Shown piece by piece: positions 299 through 15,482 of a stretch of DNA of 23,665 nt. The first letter of the stretch is position 1, and every line of letters begins with the position of its first letter. Made by a program: the position numbers and the translations under genes. The notes under the pieces were generated by a model. The model did no database searches. It was not told where the DNA came from and saw only the letters and a program-made list of their open reading frames with translations. The DNA is from a virus. Location of the stretch: positions 1 through 23,665 of IMG/VR virus record IMGVR_UViG_3300014960_000093, one strand, 5' to 3'.

Positions 299-486
299 CC
301 CCATTTTTCCTCTTGCTCTTGCAATAGTGTTTTTTGTCCAGATTTGAACCCTGCACAATACACAGAAAGCAATTCTTTGTATTGCTCATATTCATAGCTT
401 TCTAAATTTTTCGGGATTGAACCATATTTTCTCTTATAAAACTTGTCAAATAAAATATGGTCTGGTTTTTTCTTTGGCTTGCTCAT
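295..486 (-). CDS. Small phage protein, AGF motif, paralogue B
   Basis: A 63-residue lysine-rich protein of unknown function. It starts at 486, two bases after the DnaN stop codon, with a GAGGG ribosome-binding site inside the end of the clamp gene. Its stop overlaps the next start as ATGA. It shares a Y-K-x-x-Y-G-x-x-P segment and a C-terminal AGFxxG segment with the following 75-residue protein. Position at the end of the replication operon, coupled to dnaN, suggests early expression. Its function cannot be read from the sequence. Confidence 0.75.
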   Translation of the reverse strand: MSKPKKKPDHILFDKFYKRKYGSIPKNLESYEYEQYKELLSVYCAGFKSGQKTLLQEQEEKWG

Positions 487-488
487 GT

Positions 489-1568
489 CTATACCCTCAC
501 CGGCATAATCAATTGTAAACTGTTTACCTCGCCCTGATTCACAGGCTCTAACGTGACAGTATTGCTCCCGTCAATGTATCCTATTATAGACTGCTCTTTA
601 ATCGCTTTCAGCGCGTCTAATAAATAGCGGCTATTTAAACCTATGATCGCTGGCTTCCCGATATTTTCCACGTCGATTTCCTCCGTCGCTCCACTGCTAG
701 TTATAACTGCGCTCGAATCGTCAATGTTGAGCGTGAGCATATTATTAGTGGCTACCAGCGCGGCACGCTCAACCGCTGCAATAACATCATCGGGCAACAT
801 TAAATAGTCAGTAACGCGAGGGATAACGCGCTCATAATCGGGAAAGCGCCCATCAACTAAAGCTGTCTGTAACGATATATCCCCCAGATCAATTATTAGC
901 GCGTTGCTGTATACCTCTAAAGTAATGATATTGTCGCTTTTTGGCGACAGTATCGAGCGAATAGCGTCGATACTGGGGCGTGGGATAATAACGCTAAAGC
1001 TGGGGCCATCTGTCGGAATGCTTGCTTTTGCTAGACGATGCCCGTCTGTCGATACAGCAATTAAATTGCTCCCCGTTGATTTTAATAGCGTGCCGACAAG
1101 GAAATATCTCACGTCAGTGACGGCCATCGCGTGACGGGTATAATCCAGCAGAGAAAGCAAAAAATCCTCCCTTACGCTGATTTTGCTAGCTTCTCCGTTG
1201 TTTTCTTTCTGTGCCGGGTAACTCAGCGCGTCCATCTGTTCTAATTTGTATTTAGATTTACCCGCTTTTAGGATAATCGTATCCTCCGAGTTCTTTACGT
1301 CTAGCTGCACCGTTTCCGTGGTTATTTTGCTTAATAATTGATACAGCTTATGAGCGGGGAGCGTAAATTCAGATACCGGGGCGGAACAATCTAGCGCGTC
1401 GCACGTTGCGCGTAGCATCAAGCTCATGTCAAAACCGGTTAGCAATAAACCGGTGTCATTAATTGCTATGTGACAATGCGACAGGATGGGTAGCGTTGTC
1501 GTTTTCTGAATAGCGGGTAAAACGTGTTTTACCGCTACCAACAGTTCATCTGTATTAACGCTTATCAT
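489..1568 (-). CDS. dnaN: DNA polymerase III beta subunit-like sliding clamp (DnaN)
   Basis: A 359-residue protein with the length and layout of bacterial beta clamps (E. coli DnaN is 366). The family protein forms a dimeric ring round DNA and tethers polymerase and other partners. Landmarks are TLPIL near residue 26, the central segment STDGHRLAKASIP (E. coli ATDGHRLAVCSMP), DYERVIPRV (family YRRVLP) and the C-terminus LQLIMPVRV (E. coli YVVMPMRL), which is the end that builds the partner-binding cleft. The start at 1568 is chosen over the longer open frame (to 1610) because MISVNTDELL matches the family N-terminus and a GGAG site lies 8 bases upstream. It overlaps the end of the preceding small gene by 14 bases. 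No polymerase gene is visible, so it may serve host Pol III or a polymerase encoded elsewhere. Confidence 0.93.
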   Translation of the reverse strand: MISVNTDELLVAVKHVLPAIQKTTTLPILSHCHIAINDTGLLLTGFDMSLMLRATCDALDCSAPVSEFTLPAHKLYQLLSKITTETVQLDVKNSEDTIILKAGKSKYKLEQMDALSYPAQKENNGEASKISVREDFLLSLLDYTRHAMAVTDVRYFLVGTLLKSTGSNLIAVSTDGHRLAKASIPTDGPSFSVIIPRPSIDAIRSILSPKSDNIITLEVYSNALIIDLGDISLQTALVDGRFPDYERVIPRVTDYLMLPDDVIAAVERAALVATNNMLTLNIDDSSAVITSSGATEEIDVENIGKPAIIGLNSRYLLDALKAIKEQSIIGYIDGSNTVTLEPVNQGEVNSLQLIMPVRV

Positions 1569-3741: not shown

Positions 3742-4167
3742 CTAAGCACGCTTTATTAGCCTAACTGCATATTCTTCATCTTTTGGTTCTTCTGTACACA
3801 TTTCATCATAACCAACAAAATGAAAGCACCATTCATACAAATACTCATCATACATTTCTTTTACTGCATTTTCGGGAATGCAATCATTATCTAATGCCCA
3901 AAACTCTTTGGCGCTGTTTGGAAAAAGTTTGTCATTAATTTTTCGTTTATATCTAGCGTCAATTAATGACACAAGCTCAGAAACATAGGGTAGCCGCCAT
4001 TCACCCTTTGCATATTTTTTTGCTTCGTTATATGTCAATTCCACAGGCTCACCTACGCAAGTTTTTTGCTTTGCGTCCCAAGTTTGCCCCAAACAACAAC
4101 GATCCCAGGTTATTTTTCTTGCTGTGTCAGTTACTTCGTCGCCTTTCGCGTTTATCTGGTATCCCAT
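3742..4167 (-). CDS. DUF1566 (Lcl C-terminal) domain protein, copy 1
   Basis: A 141-residue protein of the DUF1566/Lcl family, which has a C-type-lectin-like fold. Shared features with copy 2 are an N-terminal GDEVTDTxxxxTWxRC, GQTWDAxxxxCVGE, an A-x-x-YA segment, WRLPxxxEL and a C-terminal AVRLIK. The ATG at 4167 is chosen because it aligns with copy 2; an in-frame GTG at 4182 is possible and the ribosome-binding site is weak for both. It lies directly after nrdJb and before the helicase. The central part (EYLYEWCFHFVGYDEMC) has diverged from copy 2. Family members are often binding or receptor-type proteins, so a place between nucleotide-metabolism genes is odd. No signal peptide. Function unknown. 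Confidence 0.8.
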   Translation of the reverse strand: MGYQINAKGDEVTDTARKITWDRCCLGQTWDAKQKTCVGEPVELTYNEAKKYAKGEWRLPYVSELVSLIDARYKRKINDKLFPNSAKEFWALDNDCIPENAVKEMYDEYLYEWCFHFVGYDEMCTEEPKDEEYAVRLIKRA

Positions 4168-4172
4168 GTTGA

Positions 4173-4775
4173 TCACCCGCACTTAGAGTTAGCACAATTA
4201 ACGCACGTCATACATCCGTCCATCCTAATCACCGTTTTTTCATTACATACTGGACACATTTCCGCTTGCGCCATGTCGGCCTTTTCCTTCTTGCTGTCAA
4301 TGTACGCTTTCCGCTCCGCGTCCATTTCCTGCGCTTTAATCACCCCAATTAATTTTAAGTGAGACTCGATAACGTCGCCAATTTCAGCAACGAGTGACGG
4401 CATATATTTACCGCCTCGCTTAAAATAGCCCCCCTTGGGGTCAAAAACAGAGCGCAATTCTTCAACGAGGAACTCAACCTCCCCACCCTTGCGAAACACG
4501 GCGGAAATAATCCGCGTGAGCGCCACAATCCATTGAAAGTCACCCATGTTTTTCGAGTTTATGAATATCTCGAAAGGGCGGCGCTGGTCATTAATTAAAA
4601 TATCGTTAATCGTGATATAAAGCGCGTGCTCTGTAATCGGCGTTTTGACTTTGTAAGTATTTCCTACAAGCATTTCAGGCCGGTCTAGCTTTTCGTGTAG
4701 GTTTTGCACAGTAACCTGTGTTTCTGTTGCGGCTATTTCGTATTTCACTATTTTGCTATTGATTTTCTTGCTCAT
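4173..4775 (-). CDS. nrdJb: Class II ribonucleotide reductase, C-terminal TSCPD-domain subunit (NrdJb-like)
   Basis: A 200-residue protein matching the C-terminal part of adenosylcobalamin-dependent RNR, which some bacteria such as Pseudomonas aeruginosa encode separately as NrdJb. Residues 65-145 carry the conserved stretch RRPFEIFINSKN, WIVALTRIISAVFRKGG, VEELRSVFDPKGGYFK and YMPSLVAEIGDVIE. The tail holds Cys174, Cys177, Cys188, Cys191, Cys194 and Cys199, the kind of C-terminal cysteine pairs that pass reducing equivalents to the active site. A near-perfect AGGAGG lies 8 bases before the ATG. The catalytic half is nearly 700 bases upstream, separated by two complete genes. Both genes start and stop cleanly, so this is a gene split, not a frameshift. 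Confidence 0.88.
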   Translation of the reverse strand: MSKKINSKIVKYEIAATETQVTVQNLHEKLDRPEMLVGNTYKVKTPITEHALYITINDILINDQRRPFEIFINSKNMGDFQWIVALTRIISAVFRKGGEVEFLVEELRSVFDPKGGYFKRGGKYMPSLVAEIGDVIESHLKLIGVIKAQEMDAERKAYIDSKKEKADMAQAEMCPVCNEKTVIRMDGCMTCVNCANSKCG

Positions 4776-4778
4776 TGT

Positions 4779-5183
4779 TTATCCTCCTGTTTTTACTAAA
4801 CGTACCGCGCCGTTGCCGCTGCGTAGATTGAGGTAGATAACGCCATTAAGGAAATAAAGAAACCATGCGGCATTGGAATGACTTACATGAGGCGAAGAAG
4901 ACCAATAAAACCATTTTCCCGTATTAGGAAACGTAACATTATCAATTGTAGGTTGATAGTTTTTATCCACTAATGTAGCTAGTTCGTCTATGGTTGGCAA
5001 CCGCCATCCTTCTTGGCTGTCTGCGTATTTCATCGCGTCATCCCAATTCATTTTCTGTACTTCACCAACGCAATTTTGTTTTTCTGCGTCCCAGGTTTGC
5101 CCAACAGAACACCGCGCCCAGGTCAATCCGGTAACAGTGTCCGTCACTTCATCTCCCGCTTCGTTTATTTCGTATCTGCTCAT
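4779..5183 (-). CDS. DUF1566 (Lcl C-terminal) domain protein, copy 2
   Basis: A 134-residue complete DUF1566 domain: GDEVTDTVTGLTWARC, GQTWDAEKQNCVGE, the WRLPTIDELATLVD core, FYWSSSPH, then a C-terminal AVRLVK. The YWSSS...AVRLV half is the segment that forms the ligand face in lectin-like members. The start overlaps the stop of the 81-residue gene as ATGA, with an AGGG site upstream, and the gene ends 3 bases before nrdJb begins, so it is translationally embedded between the two RNR halves. About 40% of residues match copy 1 by eye in the N-terminal 80 positions. This family contains targets of diversity-generating retroelements, but no reverse transcriptase is visible here. Role unknown. 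Confidence 0.85.
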   Translation of the reverse strand: MSRYEINEAGDEVTDTVTGLTWARCSVGQTWDAEKQNCVGEVQKMNWDDAMKYADSQEGWRLPTIDELATLVDKNYQPTIDNVTFPNTGKWFYWSSSPHVSHSNAAWFLYFLNGVIYLNLRSGNGAVRLVKTGG

Positions 5184-5435: not shown

Positions 5436-7403
5436 TCAAAATTTCCCGTAGTAGCCTTCTTTTAAGGCATCATATAGATTCGCTGCGCTATGTTTCTCCC
5501 CGTCGTACTCTATTTCCTCGTTGCCCTGTGCCGTTACCACCTCCCCGGTTTCAAGCGTGAATTTGTAAGTGGTGGCTGCTAAGTCCTTTTCTTTTACCAA
5601 AACGCCCTGGAAGTTTTCCGGGTTATAACGAAACGTGGCGCATCCTTTTAAACCGCTTCGGTAGGCGTTTAAATAAATATCAGTAAATTCGTGATAGGGA
5701 ATATCCGATGGAACATTGATTGTCTTTGATATTGAAGAATCAATCCACTCCTGTGCGGCGGCCTGGATTGCTATATGCTCTGACGGTTTTACTGTATCAG
5801 CCTGAACAAAATAATCAGGCAGATTATCTGGCGTGGCGTTTTTATCGACTAACGCACGATAAGCAAGTAATTCGTAAGAATAAACATCTACTTTCTCTTT
5901 TGTCTTTTTACCCTCCGTTATGACATTGCGCGAGTAATGATGTGAGAAACTCGGCTCAATACCATTACTAGCATTATTAGCCAAAGAAAGGGAAATCGTG
6001 CCAGTAGGCGCGACGCTCGAATGGTGAGAAAAACGAGAACCAAATAAAGCCAATTCATTAATGAGTTCAGGCTCTATTTCCCCCAGCTTTTGCATATAAC
6101 GACTATATCGAGCAAACAAAATGCGCCCCGGTAGCGTGTCACCTACCTTGATTCCATCTTTTGCCATTTCGGGGCGGAGTTCCATCATTTTGGCGGTGAC
6201 GGTAAATTCTTCGTCCATAATTGGCGCTGCCCCTTTTTCCTTAGCCAACGCTAATCCCTGCTTAAATCCAGTGATTGCAAGTTCTCTGGTTAATTGTTTT
6301 GTAAATTCTATAGATTCAGGCGAGCCATACTTGATGCCCATCATCGCAAGAGCAGAACCTAAACCCAAATATCCCATTCCATGGCGACGCTTACGGATAA
6401 TCTCGTCCCGTTGCTTACCTAGCGCTAATCCGTTTATTTCCACGACATTATCCAGCATTCGCGCAAACACTGAAACAACGTCCCGAAACTTATAAAAATC
6501 AAATTGTGCATTACCTGTGAATGGGTCTGTCACAAATTGAGTCAAATTAATAGACCCCAACAAGCAGGAGCCATACGGGGGCAATCCTTGTTCCCCACAC
6601 GGATTCGTTGCGCGGATATTTTCGCACCACCAGTTATTATTCATCTCATTGTATTTATCAATGAGAATAAAACCAGGCTCTGCATAATCATAATTAGAGC
6701 GCATAATTAAATCCCATAATTCGCGGGATTTAATTGTTTTGTAGATTTTCCCATCAAACGCTAGATTCCAATCCTGATCCTGTTCTACCGCCTCCATAAA
6801 TTCCTTTGTTATCAATAGCGAGATATTAAATTGTCTAAGTCTTCCGTCCTCTCTTTTCGCTCGAATAACATCTATTACATCGGGATGGCCTACGTCAAAG
6901 GTTGCCATCTGCGCCCCGCGCCGTCCTCCGGCAGAGGAAACGGTAAAGCACATTTTGTCGAAAATATCCATGAACGACAGGGGGCCAGAGGTATACGCCC
7001 CCGCACCAGAGACATACGCCCCGCGAGGCCGCAATGTGCTAAACTCGTAACCAATCCCCGAGCCGGATTTTAAGGTCAATCCCGCTTCGTGCACCTTGGC
7101 CAGAATGTCGTCCATTGAATCGTGGATAGTGCCGGATACCGTACAATTGATAGTGGAGGTGGCGGGCTTATGCTCTAGCGCACCCGCGTTTGAAATAATC
7201 CGACCTGCTGGAATGGCTCCATTCTCAAGTGCCCATAAAAATGCTTTTTCCCAGTGTTGGCTATCCGCTTCCCCTGCAGCCAGCGCAACCGCAACGCGCT
7301 TATAAGTATCATTCATGCTTTTATCTATTTCATTTCCATTTTTGTCTTTCAATTGGTATTTCTTCGCCCATATTTCTTGTGACGTTGCTTGCACGGGTAT
7401 CAT
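5436..7403 (-). CDS. nrdJa: Adenosylcobalamin-dependent (class II) ribonucleotide reductase, catalytic subunit (NrdJa-like)
   Basis: A 655-residue class II RNR catalytic subunit, which reduces ribonucleotides to deoxyribonucleotides using vitamin B12. Numbering from the ATG at 7403, NPCGE (267-271) gives Asn267, the thiyl-radical Cys269 and Glu271. Cys87 (STINC) and Cys280 (GSCLLG) fit the redox pair. The spacing 269 to 280 equals that in Thermotoga NrdJ (322 to 333). RRHGMGYLGLG and PTGTISL are also present. The start at 7403 is chosen for a GAGGA site 7 bases upstream and because family similarity begins at IPVQATSQEIWAKKY; the open frame to 7565 would overlap the upstream gene by over 100 bases. 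It ends before the TSCPD/cysteine tail, which is encoded at 4173-4775. An aerobic or anaerobic host should both permit it, if cobalamin is available. Confidence 0.93.
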   Translation of the reverse strand: MIPVQATSQEIWAKKYQLKDKNGNEIDKSMNDTYKRVAVALAAGEADSQHWEKAFLWALENGAIPAGRIISNAGALEHKPATSTINCTVSGTIHDSMDDILAKVHEAGLTLKSGSGIGYEFSTLRPRGAYVSGAGAYTSGPLSFMDIFDKMCFTVSSAGGRRGAQMATFDVGHPDVIDVIRAKREDGRLRQFNISLLITKEFMEAVEQDQDWNLAFDGKIYKTIKSRELWDLIMRSNYDYAEPGFILIDKYNEMNNNWWCENIRATNPCGEQGLPPYGSCLLGSINLTQFVTDPFTGNAQFDFYKFRDVVSVFARMLDNVVEINGLALGKQRDEIIRKRRHGMGYLGLGSALAMMGIKYGSPESIEFTKQLTRELAITGFKQGLALAKEKGAAPIMDEEFTVTAKMMELRPEMAKDGIKVGDTLPGRILFARYSRYMQKLGEIEPELINELALFGSRFSHHSSVAPTGTISLSLANNASNGIEPSFSHHYSRNVITEGKKTKEKVDVYSYELLAYRALVDKNATPDNLPDYFVQADTVKPSEHIAIQAAAQEWIDSSISKTINVPSDIPYHEFTDIYLNAYRSGLKGCATFRYNPENFQGVLVKEKDLAATTYKFTLETGEVVTAQGNEEIEYDGEKHSAANLYDALKEGYYGKF

Positions 7404-7453
7404 TATTGCTTCCTCGGTAAACTCCACAGAGCAATTCTGTGGAGCAATATGGG

Positions 7454-7825
7454 TTAAATGTGGATAGAGATTAAATCGTGCAATTCCTTTTCTATCTTTT
7501 GTAATTCCTCTATCCGTTTCGCTTTCTTTTTTGCGCTCCATGATAATAACGTTACTTTCTGGCAAAGTTCGACGAACTCCGCCGGGGTGTATTTTTTCCT
7601 TTCTTGCGTCGTATCTTGCTTCATTTCTTGTTTCTCCGGTTGTCTCACAACGCTATATTTAGCGTCGCGGTCTTTTGTGACTAGCCCACTCTTTAATAAT
7701 TGGTGGGCGGCTTTGCTTACGTCTAGCACGCTCAACCCAACATATTCCGCAAGCGCTTTTGCGCCTACGGGTGATTCCATCTCGCTTAACGCTTCAAAGA
7801 CTTCCTGCACTAATGACTCATTCAC
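7454..7825 (-). CDS. Winged helix-turn-helix protein (123 aa)
   Basis: Residues 1-60 look like a winged helix: VQEVFEALSEMESPVGAKALAEYVGLSVLDVSKAAHQLLKSGLVTKDRDAKYSVV, with a recognition helix followed by a beta wing. The rest is a charged linker and a helical, probably coiled-coil tail (KKKAKRIEELQKIEKELHDL). The start is a GTG at 7825, chosen for the GAGGAG site 7 bases upstream; it overlaps the preceding gene by 8 bases. It is encoded just upstream of nrdJa and may regulate the operon or bind DNA in replication; this is inference. An internal ATG at 7624 has its own good ribosome-binding site, so a 56-residue C-terminal form is possible. Confidence 0.75.
   Translation of the reverse strand: MNESLVQEVFEALSEMESPVGAKALAEYVGLSVLDVSKAAHQLLKSGLVTKDRDAKYSVVRQPEKQEMKQDTTQERKKYTPAEFVELCQKVTLLSWSAKKKAKRIEELQKIEKELHDLISIHI
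7632..7642 (-). repeat. CAACCGGAGAA element, copy 1 (internal to the winged-helix gene)
   Basis: Reads CAACCGGAGAA on the minus strand, 8 bases before an in-frame ATG at 7624. It also codes for residues QPEK of the winged-helix protein. Copies 2-4 sit at true gene starts. Confidence 0.7.
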
Positions 7826-11956: not shown

Positions 11957-12160
11957 ATGATGATGTTGACACTAGAAGAGGTGCGGCGGCGACTAGCTGA
12001 CCGCAATCTATCAGCAGTATCTCGCATGATTGGTATGCCATATAGCACGCTCTACGCCGTAGCAAGCGGGCGCGAGGAAAAACCTACTTATGCAACAGTT
12101 AAGGCGTTGAGCGACTATCTGACCGCCACCACACCAGGGGGCGAAAATGGCAATCATTGA
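11957..12160 (+). CDS. Cro-like helix-turn-helix regulator (67 aa)
   Basis: A 67-residue protein that is almost entirely one helix-turn-helix domain: LTLEEVRRRLADRNLSAVSRMIGMPYSTLYAVASGREEKPTYATVKALSDYLTA, where LSAVSRMIG...STLYAVASG is the two-helix motif. Three ATG codons in a row follow AGGAGG; spacing (4 to the first, 7 to the second) allows any of the first two. It is the first rightward gene and probably represses one or both divergent promoters, as Cro does. Its end overlaps the primase gene by 14 bases. No CI-type partner is encoded nearby. Confidence 0.8.
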   Translation: MMMLTLEEVRRRLADRNLSAVSRMIGMPYSTLYAVASGREEKPTYATVKALSDYLTATTPGGENGNH

Positions 12161-14156
12161 CATCTCGCTCAAAGACTGCGACATACCAGAAAAAAAGGTG
12201 ATTGACTATGAGATTCAGCTAATAGAAGAAATCAAAAAAGCCAATCTTAATCCTCCTCAAAACGTAATACTGGACGGGCAGATACACCGGTTTGCGTCCG
12301 ATCCCGATGACCCCAGGGATCTGAAAGGCTGGTACGTCGCTTATAGTGACGGCATACCGGCTGGGGTATTCGGAGACCACAGCACTAAAGAGACTCACTA
12401 CTGGAAGGCTGATGTCGGGCGGGAATTGTCTCTACAGGAAACGATAGAGCATCGTCGTGCAATGCAAGCAGCGGAAGAGGCGAGAGCGAGAGATAGGAAA
12501 ATCAGACAGGCGGAGAGAATAAAGGAGGCGGGCGCACTGTGGGATAGAGCTGAATTAGCGCATTCTCACCCTTACCTCACGAAAAAACAAATAGCCCCAG
12601 GGGTCGCCAGAATTGGCGATGATGGGACGCTATTGTTGCCTATTTATAACGCTGACGGCTCTATTCAGTCGTTGCAGCGTATCAATAATGACGGGGAAAA
12701 GCGTTTTTTTGGGGGTGCTCCCTTTCGCGGGGGATATTGCGTACTGGGGGACTGGAATACGCCAGTAGTCTATTTAGTAGAGGGGTACGCTACTGGCTCG
12801 ACAGTGCGCGAAAAAACGGGGATGACTGTCGTTATTGCGTACAGCCTAAACAATCTGGAACCTGTCTATTTATCGCTCAAACACAAAGCGCAAGAATGGG
12901 TGCTCATTGCAGACAACGATAAAAGCAAAGCCGGGCAAAATGAGGGGGAACGACTAAAAGAGAAACACGGGCTAAAAATGGTACTGCCTGGGGTGGAGGG
13001 ACAAGACGCTAATGATTTTGTCAACGACGGCGGGGATTTATTAGCGATATTGCCAGAGATTAAACCACTTACGCCCATTATTGATTGGTTGATTAATGCT
13101 GATGATTTTAGCCAGCAACCTGCACCATTGCAGTGGTTGGTTAAAGGGTGGGTGCAAAGGGATTCTCTAATGATGGTGCACGGGCCAAGCGGGTGCGGTA
13201 AAACGTTTATCGTATTAGATTGGTGTATGCGTATTGCAACGGATTATGATGATTGGTTCGGTCATAAAGTACGAAATGGGGTTGTTGTGTATTTAGCCGG
13301 AGAAGGGCATCACGGATTACGGGCACGGGTTGCCGCGTGGCAAACTCAATACGGAAAAAAACAAACTAAAATGTGGTTATCTAGTAGCGGGTGCGATTTC
13401 AATTCTGACGAAGGCTATCAGTTGATAGTGTCAGAAATTGAGAAAAAAGGCATTAAACCATTATTAATTGTGGTGGATACGCTGCACCGATTTATGGACG
13501 GCAATGAAAACGATAGCAAGGACGTAAGGGGAATGCTGTCATATTGTGCCAGATTGCAACAACGATTTAATGCCAGCGTTTTGCTAGTACACCACACCGG
13601 CGTTAGTGCGGAAGCGCAAGACAGAGCTAGAGGATCTAGCGCGTGGCGTGCCGCGTTAGATATTGAAGTGTCAATCTCCCCCGCCAAAGAGGAGACTCCG
13701 ATTAAAATATCTCAGCGCAAAAGCAAAGATGCAGAATTGGCGCGTCCCATTAATGTAATGCTATCTAAGGTGGAAATTCCGGGATGGATTGATGAGGACG
13801 GCGAAGCCGTGACAAGCGCGGTAGTGACGCTTGCCGATGCTGACACTATGCAATCTGATAAATCAAAAGGCGGTAAAAGCCGCAAATGGTTTGAAGATGC
13901 CTGGTATGACTCAGAGCGATTGATACAGCAAGGGTCTCCATATTTGTCACGCAGTGATTTTTTATCGTATTTGATTGATAGCGCCGCGCTAACGCCAGAC
14001 TCGGCCAAAAAATACCTTACCCCAACAGGGAAAATAGTCAAGGAGTTGATTGACTCGGAAACGATAGCAGTGCATAGCGCGGGATGGATAGTCATTGATG
14101 ACGATTTAGCTAGTGTGATGATGTTGTTGTCAGGAGACGGAACAAACGGAAAATAG
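12147..14156 (+). CDS. TOPRIM primase / RecA-fold replicative helicase
   Basis: A 669-residue bifunctional replication protein. Residues 1-100 hold no CHC2 zinc finger; a charged helical stretch (105-130) follows. The TOPRIM domain has Glu212 (YLVEGYATGS), Asp256-Asn-Asp258 and a DANDF box (287-291), as in phage P4-alpha/T7-type primases. From about 325 a RepA-like RecA-fold ATPase begins: Walker A GPSGCGKT (346-353), AGEGHHG (384-390), Walker B VVDTLHRF (Asp444), VHHTG (481-485) and ARGSSAWRAALD (494-505). A C-terminal tail of about 100 residues could bind origin DNA. The start ATG lies inside the end of the regulator gene. The CGGAA repeat cluster begins within its last 19 bases. Confidence 0.92.
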   Translation: MAIIDISLKDCDIPEKKVIDYEIQLIEEIKKANLNPPQNVILDGQIHRFASDPDDPRDLKGWYVAYSDGIPAGVFGDHSTKETHYWKADVGRELSLQETIEHRRAMQAAEEARARDRKIRQAERIKEAGALWDRAELAHSHPYLTKKQIAPGVARIGDDGTLLLPIYNADGSIQSLQRINNDGEKRFFGGAPFRGGYCVLGDWNTPVVYLVEGYATGSTVREKTGMTVVIAYSLNNLEPVYLSLKHKAQEWVLIADNDKSKAGQNEGERLKEKHGLKMVLPGVEGQDANDFVNDGGDLLAILPEIKPLTPIIDWLINADDFSQQPAPLQWLVKGWVQRDSLMMVHGPSGCGKTFIVLDWCMRIATDYDDWFGHKVRNGVVVYLAGEGHHGLRARVAAWQTQYGKKQTKMWLSSSGCDFNSDEGYQLIVSEIEKKGIKPLLIVVDTLHRFMDGNENDSKDVRGMLSYCARLQQRFNASVLLVHHTGVSAEAQDRARGSSAWRAALDIEVSISPAKEETPIKISQRKSKDAELARPINVMLSKVEIPGWIDEDGEAVTSAVVTLADADTMQSDKSKGGKSRKWFEDAWYDSERLIQQGSPYLSRSDFLSYLIDSAALTPDSAKKYLTPTGKIVKELIDSETIAVHSAGWIVIDDDLASVMMLLSGDGTNGK

Positions 14157-14254
14157 GCGGAAAATTCCGAATTTTCCGTTTTTAGGCGAGGCGGAGAGGG
14201 ACGGAAAGCACGGAACGGAACACACTCTTTAGAGTGTTCCGTTCTTTCCGTCCC
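14138..14254. other. CGGAA/TTCCG repeat cluster with two hairpins, candidate replication origin
   Basis: Six CGGAA (14138, 14147, 14158, 14202, 14211, 14216) and four TTCCG (14165, 14174, 14237, 14246) lie within 113 bases overlapping the end of the primase-helicase gene. They are arranged as direct repeats followed by two inverted-repeat structures. The second is a long imperfect hairpin: GGGACGGAAAG (14198-14208) pairs with CTTTCCGTCCC (14244-14254), inside which AACGGAAC pairs with GTTCCGTT and ACTCT with AGAGT, with bulges of 5 and 2 bases. The position next to a primase-helicase is typical of phage and plasmid origins. A termination or RNA-stability role is the alternative; no T-run follows the large hairpin. 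Confidence 0.45.
14158..14183 (+). terminator. Hairpin plus T-run after the primase-helicase gene
   Basis: CGGAAAATT pairs with AATTTTCCG round a CCG loop and TTTTT follows at once. The layout is that of a Rho-independent terminator, though the stem is AT-rich and so only moderately stable. It is also part of the CGGAA cluster. Confidence 0.45.
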
Positions 14255-14312
14255 CGACGCGGGGTAAGACGTTCTAAAGCTAGTATTTAACCAACCAAAA
14301 GAGAGGTTTTTT

Positions 14313-14663: not shown

Positions 14664-14969
14664 ATGGTTGATTTAGCACTGTTGCAAGAGAAAATCAGAG
14701 AACGTAACGCAACTCAGCTCGAGTTACACGCTGCGCTAGAAAATCTAGCTGGTGCAAAGGCTGATGCTGAGTATGCCGAAAACGCATTGCTAGCAGTAGA
14801 AGGCGCGACACCGGCATTACTTGCGTCGCTTGGCGTTGAGCTAAGAAAGCCGCGAAAACGGGGCGTAGCGCCCGCGAAGTGGAAGCACCCCGATGATGAT
14901 AGCCTGACCTGGAGTGGAAAAGGCAGGCGGCCAAAATGGGCCGAGTATGTAAAGCTAGTGGCAATTTGA
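14664..14969 (+). CDS. H-NS-like DNA-binding protein
   Basis: A 101-residue protein with the layout of H-NS/BpH3-type nucleoid proteins. Residues 5-45 form a helical, Ala/Glu/Leu-rich oligomerisation segment, 60-72 a basic linker (RKPRKRGVAPAKWK) and 73-95 the C-terminal DNA-binding domain with DDDSLTWSGKGRRPKWAEY. TWSGxGRxPxW is the hallmark of the betaproteobacterial/pseudomonad branch of the family. Such proteins bind AT-rich DNA in the minor groove and silence it. A phage copy could counter host H-NS silencing, regulate the phage's own late genes or compact DNA. The short length, about 30 residues less than E. coli H-NS, fits the BpH3 branch. The ribosome-binding site is weak (GAGCGC). 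Confidence 0.82.
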   Translation: MVDLALLQEKIRERNATQLELHAALENLAGAKADAEYAENALLAVEGATPALLASLGVELRKPRKRGVAPAKWKHPDDDSLTWSGKGRRPKWAEYVKLVAI

Positions 14970-15021: not shown

Positions 15022-15222
15022 ATGAAAATTACAATACAAACTGAATGCGGGACGCAAACCTGCGCGGAGTCTAAGCAAAAAGTTTGCGCGTTTCTGCAAT
15101 CGACGATGCTCGGCATTGTTCCCTATTGCGGGCTATTTTCAACGGCACTAGGGGACGTGGATGGTTGGGTTACGCGGTGCGTGCAATGCCTAGAAAAATT
15201 CAAAGGAGATAGCAGCGTATGA
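15022..15222 (+). CDS. Small cysteine-containing protein (66 aa)
   Basis: The ATG at 15022 follows GGAGG 5-6 bases upstream; the frame is open back to 14974 but that part lies in the hairpin. The 66-residue product (MKITIQTECGTQTCAESKQK...) has six cysteines, including TECGTQTC and RCVQC, which could bind zinc or form disulfides, and a hydrophobic middle (MLGIVPYCGLFSTALG) too polar at its ends for a confident membrane helix. Its stop overlaps the co-chaperonin start (ATGA). No family recognised. Confidence 0.6.
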   Translation: MKITIQTECGTQTCAESKQKVCAFLQSTMLGIVPYCGLFSTALGDVDGWVTRCVQCLEKFKGDSSV

Positions 15223-15482
15223 CCTGCCCAATTCGCCCCCTTCGAGATCGCGTTGTAGTCATCCCAGAGGTTCGGGAACTATCTAGCGTGATTTTTGTTC
15301 AAAATAACGAGAAATATAATCTGGGAACGGTTGCAGCCATCGGGCCAAACGTGAGAGAATTGAAAACGGGCGAAAAAATCAGATACGGGAATGGCTCGTA
15401 TCTGGATTGGCCCGTGGTCGAGTTTGGTGGGGTCAAGTATCAGCTTATCCAGGAAGCTGATGTAACCATGGTATTAGAATGA
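15219..15482 (+). CDS. GroES-like (Cpn10) co-chaperonin
   Basis: An 87-residue Cpn10-type protein. IRPLRDRVVV at the N-terminus matches GroES IRPLHDRVIV, LGTVAAIGPN matches RGEVLAVGNG, and LKTGEKIRYGNG, VKYQLIQEADVTMVLE matches the GroES C-terminal half. The mobile loop (about 16-33) is short but keeps a hydrophobic VIF in place of the GroES IVL that docks on GroEL. GroES has 97 residues. No GroEL is encoded here, so it would cap host GroEL, perhaps to fold the coat protein as T4 gp31 does; that is inference. Start overlaps the preceding stop; AAGGAG lies 10-11 bases upstream. Confidence 0.85.
   Translation: MTCPIRPLRDRVVVIPEVRELSSVIFVQNNEKYNLGTVAAIGPNVRELKTGEKIRYGNGSYLDWPVVEFGGVKYQLIQEADVTMVLE

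Follow-up and report, generated by a model that had tools for sequence, protein, structure and literature searches.

A hypervariable iteron array behind a phage primase-helicase gene, proposed as a replication origin whose word covaries with one predicted recognition helix

Among the closest described systems are the PICI/SaPI islands, whose origin, immediately 3' of rep, comprises two iteron sets around an A+T-rich part (PMC6092414); it is the C-terminal domain of Rep that recognises these iterons (PMC7581432). SCCmec Cch2 is an initiator helicase that uses its C-terminal domain to bind 5-nt iterons located downstream of the operon, which form a putative origin (PMC7581432). In the P4 alpha protein, a winged helix binds the origin repeats (PMC4234260), and the cognate site is mentioned in PMC6092414. 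In pRN1 and phage BIP-1, a large hairpin is found directly behind the primase-helicase gene (PMC4234260). In the PLE satellites of Vibrio cholerae, recombination changes the initiator's DNA-binding domain and the iterons of the origin together, and a phage nuclease, Odn, which copies the specificity of the initiator, may drive this swapping (PMC8263062).

The whole stretch of DNA analysed here (the window) is a 23,665-base viral contig with divergent gene blocks. The leftward block encodes a sliding clamp (489-1610, -), a helicase, a B12-type (adenosylcobalamin-dependent) ribonucleotide reductase (5436-7565, -), an exonuclease-like gene, and a Sak4-like protein. The rightward block comprises genes for a Cro-like HTH protein, the primase-helicase, small genes, a terminase, and genes that we take, from our own reading of the sequence, to be portal and capsid genes, apparently P22-like; it also encodes an H-NS C-terminal-domain protein (14664-14969, +) and a GroES-like co-chaperonin (15219-15482, +). 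Two genes on the minus strand (3742-4182 and 4779-5183) have similar starts (Y-x-I-N-x-x-G-D-E-V-T-D-T, with a Q-T-W-D-A motif) and look like a duplicated pair. A satellite island with the PICI gene order was considered and rejected, since the window encodes terminase genes and the apparent P22-like portal and capsid genes.

The word CGGAA is found on the plus strand at 14138, 14147, 14158, 14202, 14211, and 14216, and in the inverted orientation (-, TTCCG) at 14165, 14174, 14237, and 14246, so that the order along the array is + + + - - + + + - -, direct then inverted, twice over. The ten copies in 113 bases given in the preliminary description are therefore exact (14138-14250), and this count is the maximum over all 5-mers and all 113-base stretches of the window. 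Clustering beyond chance, also claimed there, holds as well: in 200 first-order Markov sequences matching the window in length and composition, the maximum was 4-6 per sequence. Only the clustering is unusual, since the 59 copies of CGGAA/TTCCG in the whole window correspond to the chance level (mean 56). The longer word ACGGAA has seven non-overlapping copies in one 300-base stretch, compared with at most four in shuffles and at most four in each of the 228 other 300-base stretches of the window, among which no second array of the word was found. The hairpin with an 11-base outer stem proved to have perfect arms and is accompanied by a second long hairpin, an inverted repeat of 19 bases (14198-14216/14236-14254, 95% complementary). 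The placement next to the primase-helicase gene was correct as to adjacency, but the array does not lie after the gene: it starts inside the last six codons (stop codon 14154-14156). The features are collected in Table 1.

Table 1. Coordinates of the proposed origin and of the associated genes and domains in the window
Feature	Position	Strand	Remarks
Small Cro-like HTH protein	11957..12160	+	Upstream of primase; PHROG transcriptional regulator
Primase-helicase gene, 669 aa	12147..14156	+	TOPRIM_3, RepA-like AAA_25 helicase, C-terminal winged-helix-like domain (predicted)
C-terminal winged-helix-like domain, residues 574-665, proposed origin-binding	13866..14141	+	Predicted fold
Predicted recognition helix, codons 617-625	13995..14021	+	Residues covarying most with the word; K622 strongest
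Iteron array, proposed replication origin core	14138..14254	.	Ten CGGAA/TTCCG words, two hairpins; orthologous arrays
Hairpin 1	14144..14181	+	Perfect 11-base outer arms AAACGGAAAAT/ATTTTCCGTTT; A+T-rich (A+T-richness in the array layout judged by eye); TTTTT follows
Spacer box GGCGAGGCGG	14185..14194	+	Window version of the conserved GGGGCAA box (GGGGGCGAGGCGG in relative L121)
Hairpin 2	14198..14254	+	19-base arms; CTTTAG tip at 14227-14232
End box CGACGCGG	14255..14262	+	Conserved array end; CGATGCGG in most relatives

An alignment query was needed to find relatives of the primase, since a single-sequence query returned none in viral contigs and one distant match in genome contigs; a DNA-level search of phages matched only at the terminase. 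The alignment-based searches yielded about 150 orthologous primase loci, some contigs having been fetched twice, and 91 without near-copies. A word array is present behind the primase stop in nearly all of these loci (about 150 viral contigs), the preliminary description having named absence of the cluster beside orthologous primases as a refutation of its reading; the word, however, differs by lineage. The relatives share one order of elements, namely direct and then inverted copies, a GGGGCAA box, further direct copies, a hairpin with a CTTTAG tip, and a last set of inverted copies, and many of their word copies are direct repeats outside any hairpin. The words fall into about 30 classes, including GGTACA in Idiomarinaceae phage 1N2-2, GGTTCA in Alteromonas phages XX1924 and PB15, and GGGACA in Salicola phage CGphi29, as well as GGTAAC, CGTAAC, CGCAAC, CGGAAC, CGGACC, CGTACC, CGTATC, GGTAGT, GGACAA, GGGTCA, AGGGTT, AGGGGG, and AGGGGC. 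A TIGR array was also considered because CGphi29 carries a TIGR-Tas system (PMC12045711), and was rejected, as no tandem array is present at the CGphi29 primase.

Of 90 loci, 64 had a best 6-mer above every one of 100 shuffles, and in 57 the array region was the strict locus maximum; the test is conservative, as it dropped 6-mers composed of only one or two kinds of letter and counted the variants of a word with variable bases separately. In three complete relatives, the densest 300 bases are this same array. The enrichment in array regions is 20-fold for the GGGGCAA box between the two halves, 44-fold for the CCTTTAG tip of the last hairpin, and about 5-fold for the CGATGCGG end box; spacer box, hairpin tip, and end box can all be recognised in the window, each in its own version. 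In two loci with no array right after the stop (L125 and L138), a GGTAAC array lies behind an inserted gene, at +999..1101 and +306..408, respectively; the insertions (about +10 to +990, apparently an acyltransferase-like gene, and +40 to +270) sit exactly between the primase stop and the intact array. No clear array was found behind the primase in L187, L250, or L262, in which the recognition-helix region is altered and another origin may be used; L161, L214, and L236 also show none, with little or no sequence following the stop. CTTTAG-tipped word arrays (AGGAACA, TGTGACA, and GGTACACAC) were also seen in L105, L103, and L092, where the primase is distantly related or undetected, and a CTTTAG-type hairpin lies beside repeated ACCGGGCCGCAA units at about 8142-8250 of L099, a contig without a primase match.

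Phages with the same word have primase C-termini more alike than their cores predict, to an extent reached by none of 2000 permutations. Over all pairs the rank correlation was close to zero, because most pairs share no word; the same-word, near-neighbour, and near-identical-core tests were chosen after this result, in which the mean identities already showed the C-terminal difference. The excess similarity is highest at window residues 616-630 and declines from there towards the array, a course that simple linkage to the array would not produce, although recombination linkage adds to the covariation, since array and C-terminus adjoin on the DNA. The nearest neighbour by helix residues 612-632 shares the word in 54% of 65 loci, compared with 9% for the nearest neighbour by the 560-residue core and 5% at random; when only very distant neighbours are considered (core below 68%), the respective values are 29%, 2%, and 4%. 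Among 119 pairs with cores more than 85% identical, the gap in identity between same-word and different-word pairs is 0.44 for the helix (606-635) and 0.00 for the core (0 of 1000 permutations), and column 622 is identical in 100% of same-word and 16% of different-word pairs.

The word switches many times on the primase-core tree, a quick tree with some long branches, that of the window among them; the GGTAAC label alone, borne by 17 rows, requires 15 changes, which is not below the number for shuffled labels. Three loci with cores 96-98% identical (L113, L124, and L149) carry the words CGGAAC, GGTAAC, and AGGGGG, and the first two differ in their words but have retained the DnaA boxes on the flanks and a large part of the flanking sequence. 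The small HTH protein was examined as an alternative reader of the word and rejected, since similarity between HTH proteins did not track the word (435 of 1000 permutations, compared with 0 of 1000 for the primase C-terminus in the same subset). The word thus covaries specifically with the primase recognition helix and not with the adjacent HTH regulator. At the sequence level, this covariation implies that the primase-helicase would recognise the array. The primase of the window is at most 51% identical to the other primases of the set, so its own pairing of word and helix is proposed by analogy with the family.

Part of this pairing appears readable at residue 622. In the first set of loci, compared by eye, Q at 622 accompanied T as the third base of the word (GGTAAC, GGTACA, CGTATC) in every row, and V accompanied GGGAAC or CGGAAC in every row, one V row (L148) having a mixture of mostly GGGAAC-type words with two GGTAAC copies. 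L125 and L138 are Q rows that seemed to be without an array, and the search for the predicted GGTAAC located their displaced arrays. The rule was written down before the next contig scan, in which L238, L232, L261, and L221 agreed with the Q rule and no further V type was encountered; since the rows are related, the counts do not represent independent trials. Two further helix types were consistent, one with GGGTCA (L263, L248, L208, and others) and one with CGGACC (four loci). A weaker rule, by which K at 622 means G, failed in L252. The window helix has K622 and belongs to neither the Q nor the V type.

In the window primase-helicase, Pfam identified AAA_25 (E 2e-37) and Toprim_3 (E 6e-8), and PHROGs assigned the product to primase/helicase families. 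The helicase of P4 alpha belongs to SF3; in contrast, no SF3 Pfam family was found on the window primase, which has the RecA-like AAA_25 helicase of RepA type instead. A PDB sequence search with the primase gave no match. The AlphaFold2 model of residues 574-669 (mean pLDDT 88.9) has the order H-E-E-H-H-H-E-E-H, and the helix at about 617-623 occupies the recognition-helix place in the predicted fold. The PDB fold neighbours are mostly winged-helix regulators (CRP, CadC, MntR) with non-significant E-values of about 0.1-0.4, so that the name winged helix rests on topology and neighbours. Primase, helicase, and a C-terminal winged helix, the last by predicted topology, would be combined in one protein. 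The same predicted domain is present in a viral Prim_Pol-domain protein (BFVD A0A6J5RWR5; TM-score 0.89, E 3e-8), which suggests that this putative origin-reading domain is shared between unrelated primases.

The perfect DnaA box TTATCCACA occurs 45 times in 28 kb of array regions and 8 times in 406 kb elsewhere (81-fold), and of 57 non-redundant loci, 20 have boxes of a looser form, TTATNCACA, in this region, for the most part on either side of the array itself; the window contains no exact DnaA box. Many iteron-type origins, though not all, have DnaA boxes near their iterons. The cumulative GC skew, proposed earlier as a check, has its minimum within about 1-2.5 kb of the array, both in the window and in three complete relatives, which agrees as to distance but does not decide the matter, as the minimum falls at the divergent promoter region each time and is not separable from transcription bias. 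The primase-linked replication origin suggested in the preliminary description nevertheless gains support from the array kept in orthologs, the covariation of word and helix, and the DnaA boxes bracketing the arrays of relatives. We consider it probable that the array is the iteron origin of the phage, read by the C-terminal domain of the primase-helicase as an exchangeable specificity module.

Covariation speaks to recognition and not to initiation, and P4 replication uses two cis sites, ori and crr. The array could accordingly be bound by the primase-helicase as an accessory site, comparable to crr or serving as a copy-control or incompatibility locus, with initiation elsewhere. We regard this as unlikely, given that the window has no second word array, that the same array is the densest stretch in the three complete relatives, that DnaA boxes lie at the array in relatives, and that PICIs and SCCmec have their origin or putative origin directly behind the initiator gene.

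The hairpins could also act as RNA, as a transcription terminator or attenuator ending the primase mRNA. The array DNA folds strongly on both strands (z = -6.2 for the plus and -7.0 for the minus strand), and hairpin 1, with its run of T, sits at the stop codon and could be a terminator or a melting region. Such a role on its own seems very unlikely, since many copies are direct repeats outside hairpins, the array is kept in L125 and L138 although an inserted gene parts it from the stop by 1 kb and 0.3 kb, word and predicted DNA-binding helix covary, the arrays of relatives are bracketed by DnaA boxes, and an Rfam search of the array region matched no curated RNA family; a terminator role in addition to the origin role would be compatible with these data. 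That the array is an operator of the small Cro-like HTH protein, whose gene is conserved beside the primase, is hardly tenable, as the similarity of this protein does not go with the word. There is likewise scarcely any likelihood of a packaging site for the small terminase subunit, although the terminase genes lie about 1.3 kb downstream in the window, as the word goes with the primase helix, and the array remains behind the primase gene at varying distances from the terminase (several kilobases in PB15).

In the iteron-origin reading, the array would consist of some ten short sites to which the primase-helicase encoded by the phage itself binds; the primase-helicase gene terminates within the array. 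The C-terminal winged-helix-like domain would read the word, here CGGAAC-like, by one recognition helix, and many monomers would assemble on the direct and inverted copies. The adjacent A+T-rich hairpin may then open, perhaps with the help of host DnaA in relatives carrying DnaA boxes, after which the ring helicase would be loaded and the TOPRIM domain would lay the first primers; binding, melting, loading, and initiation at the array are all inferred. Word and recognition helix would form an exchangeable module, as near-identical cores with different words and different helices suggest. We hypothesize, more tentatively and with some doubt, that in this phage family one recognition helix and all of the approximately ten iterons co-change repeatedly, by cassette exchange and stepwise, giving rise to dozens of mutually exclusive origin types, that the driver is antagonism (cross-recognition by co-infecting relatives, satellites, or nucleases copying the specificity of the initiator), and that a simple code can be read from the sequence, in which Q at 622 reads T and V reads G.

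A probable replication origin has been located from sequence for a large, mostly uncultured group of tailed phages. The family offers a natural experiment in which dozens of origin words are paired with sequenced recognition helices, including phages that have different words although their primase cores are 96-98% identical, and the rules by which a winged-helix initiator chooses its origin, together with the fast turnover of origin specificity, become directly testable.

Among the described systems, the PICI/SaPI islands resemble this locus in having iterons directly 3' of the primase/rep gene, in two sets around an A+T-rich part, a C-terminal reader domain (a proposed one here), and iteron sequences that differ between islands (PMC6092414, PMC7581432). 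In contrast to them, the window belongs to a phage with structural genes and encodes a TOPRIM primase fused to a RepA-like (AAA_25) helicase, the array has a CTTTAG-tipped hairpin, inverted copies, and, in many relatives, DnaA boxes, and there are about 30 word classes within one primase family. SCCmec Cch2 similarly combines the C-terminal domain of an initiator helicase with 5-nt iterons downstream, but has three iterons, separate primase-polymerase proteins, and a different helicase (PMC7581432). P4 alpha likewise unites a TOPRIM-type primase and a helicase with an origin-binding winged helix (PMC4234260), the winged helix being predicted here; unlike in P4, the array described here follows the gene immediately and has a hypervariable word. 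In pRN1 the origin has been shown, and in BIP-1 proposed, to lie immediately 3' of the primase-helicase gene; these systems also have a large hairpin conserved in shape and not in sequence, and a C-terminal winged helix, but they use a Prim-Pol and an SF3 helicase, and no iterons have been described for them (PMC4234260).

A search of a limited collection of papers found none describing a hypervariable word coupled to a primase helix, which is not proof of absence; co-changing initiators and iterons have already been described in PLE satellites (PMC8263062), so the concept itself is known. PLEs differ in having a RepA_N initiator with an N-terminal binding domain, iterons of about 30 bp, and few variants (PMC8263062), whereas the phages studied here have a C-terminal domain, words of 5-6 bp, about 30 classes, and no known driver. 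The pattern parallels the module swapping of PLE satellites on a much larger scale, and the new elements here are that the word is hypervariable and that it is coupled to one primase helix, at this larger scale and with a partly readable code.
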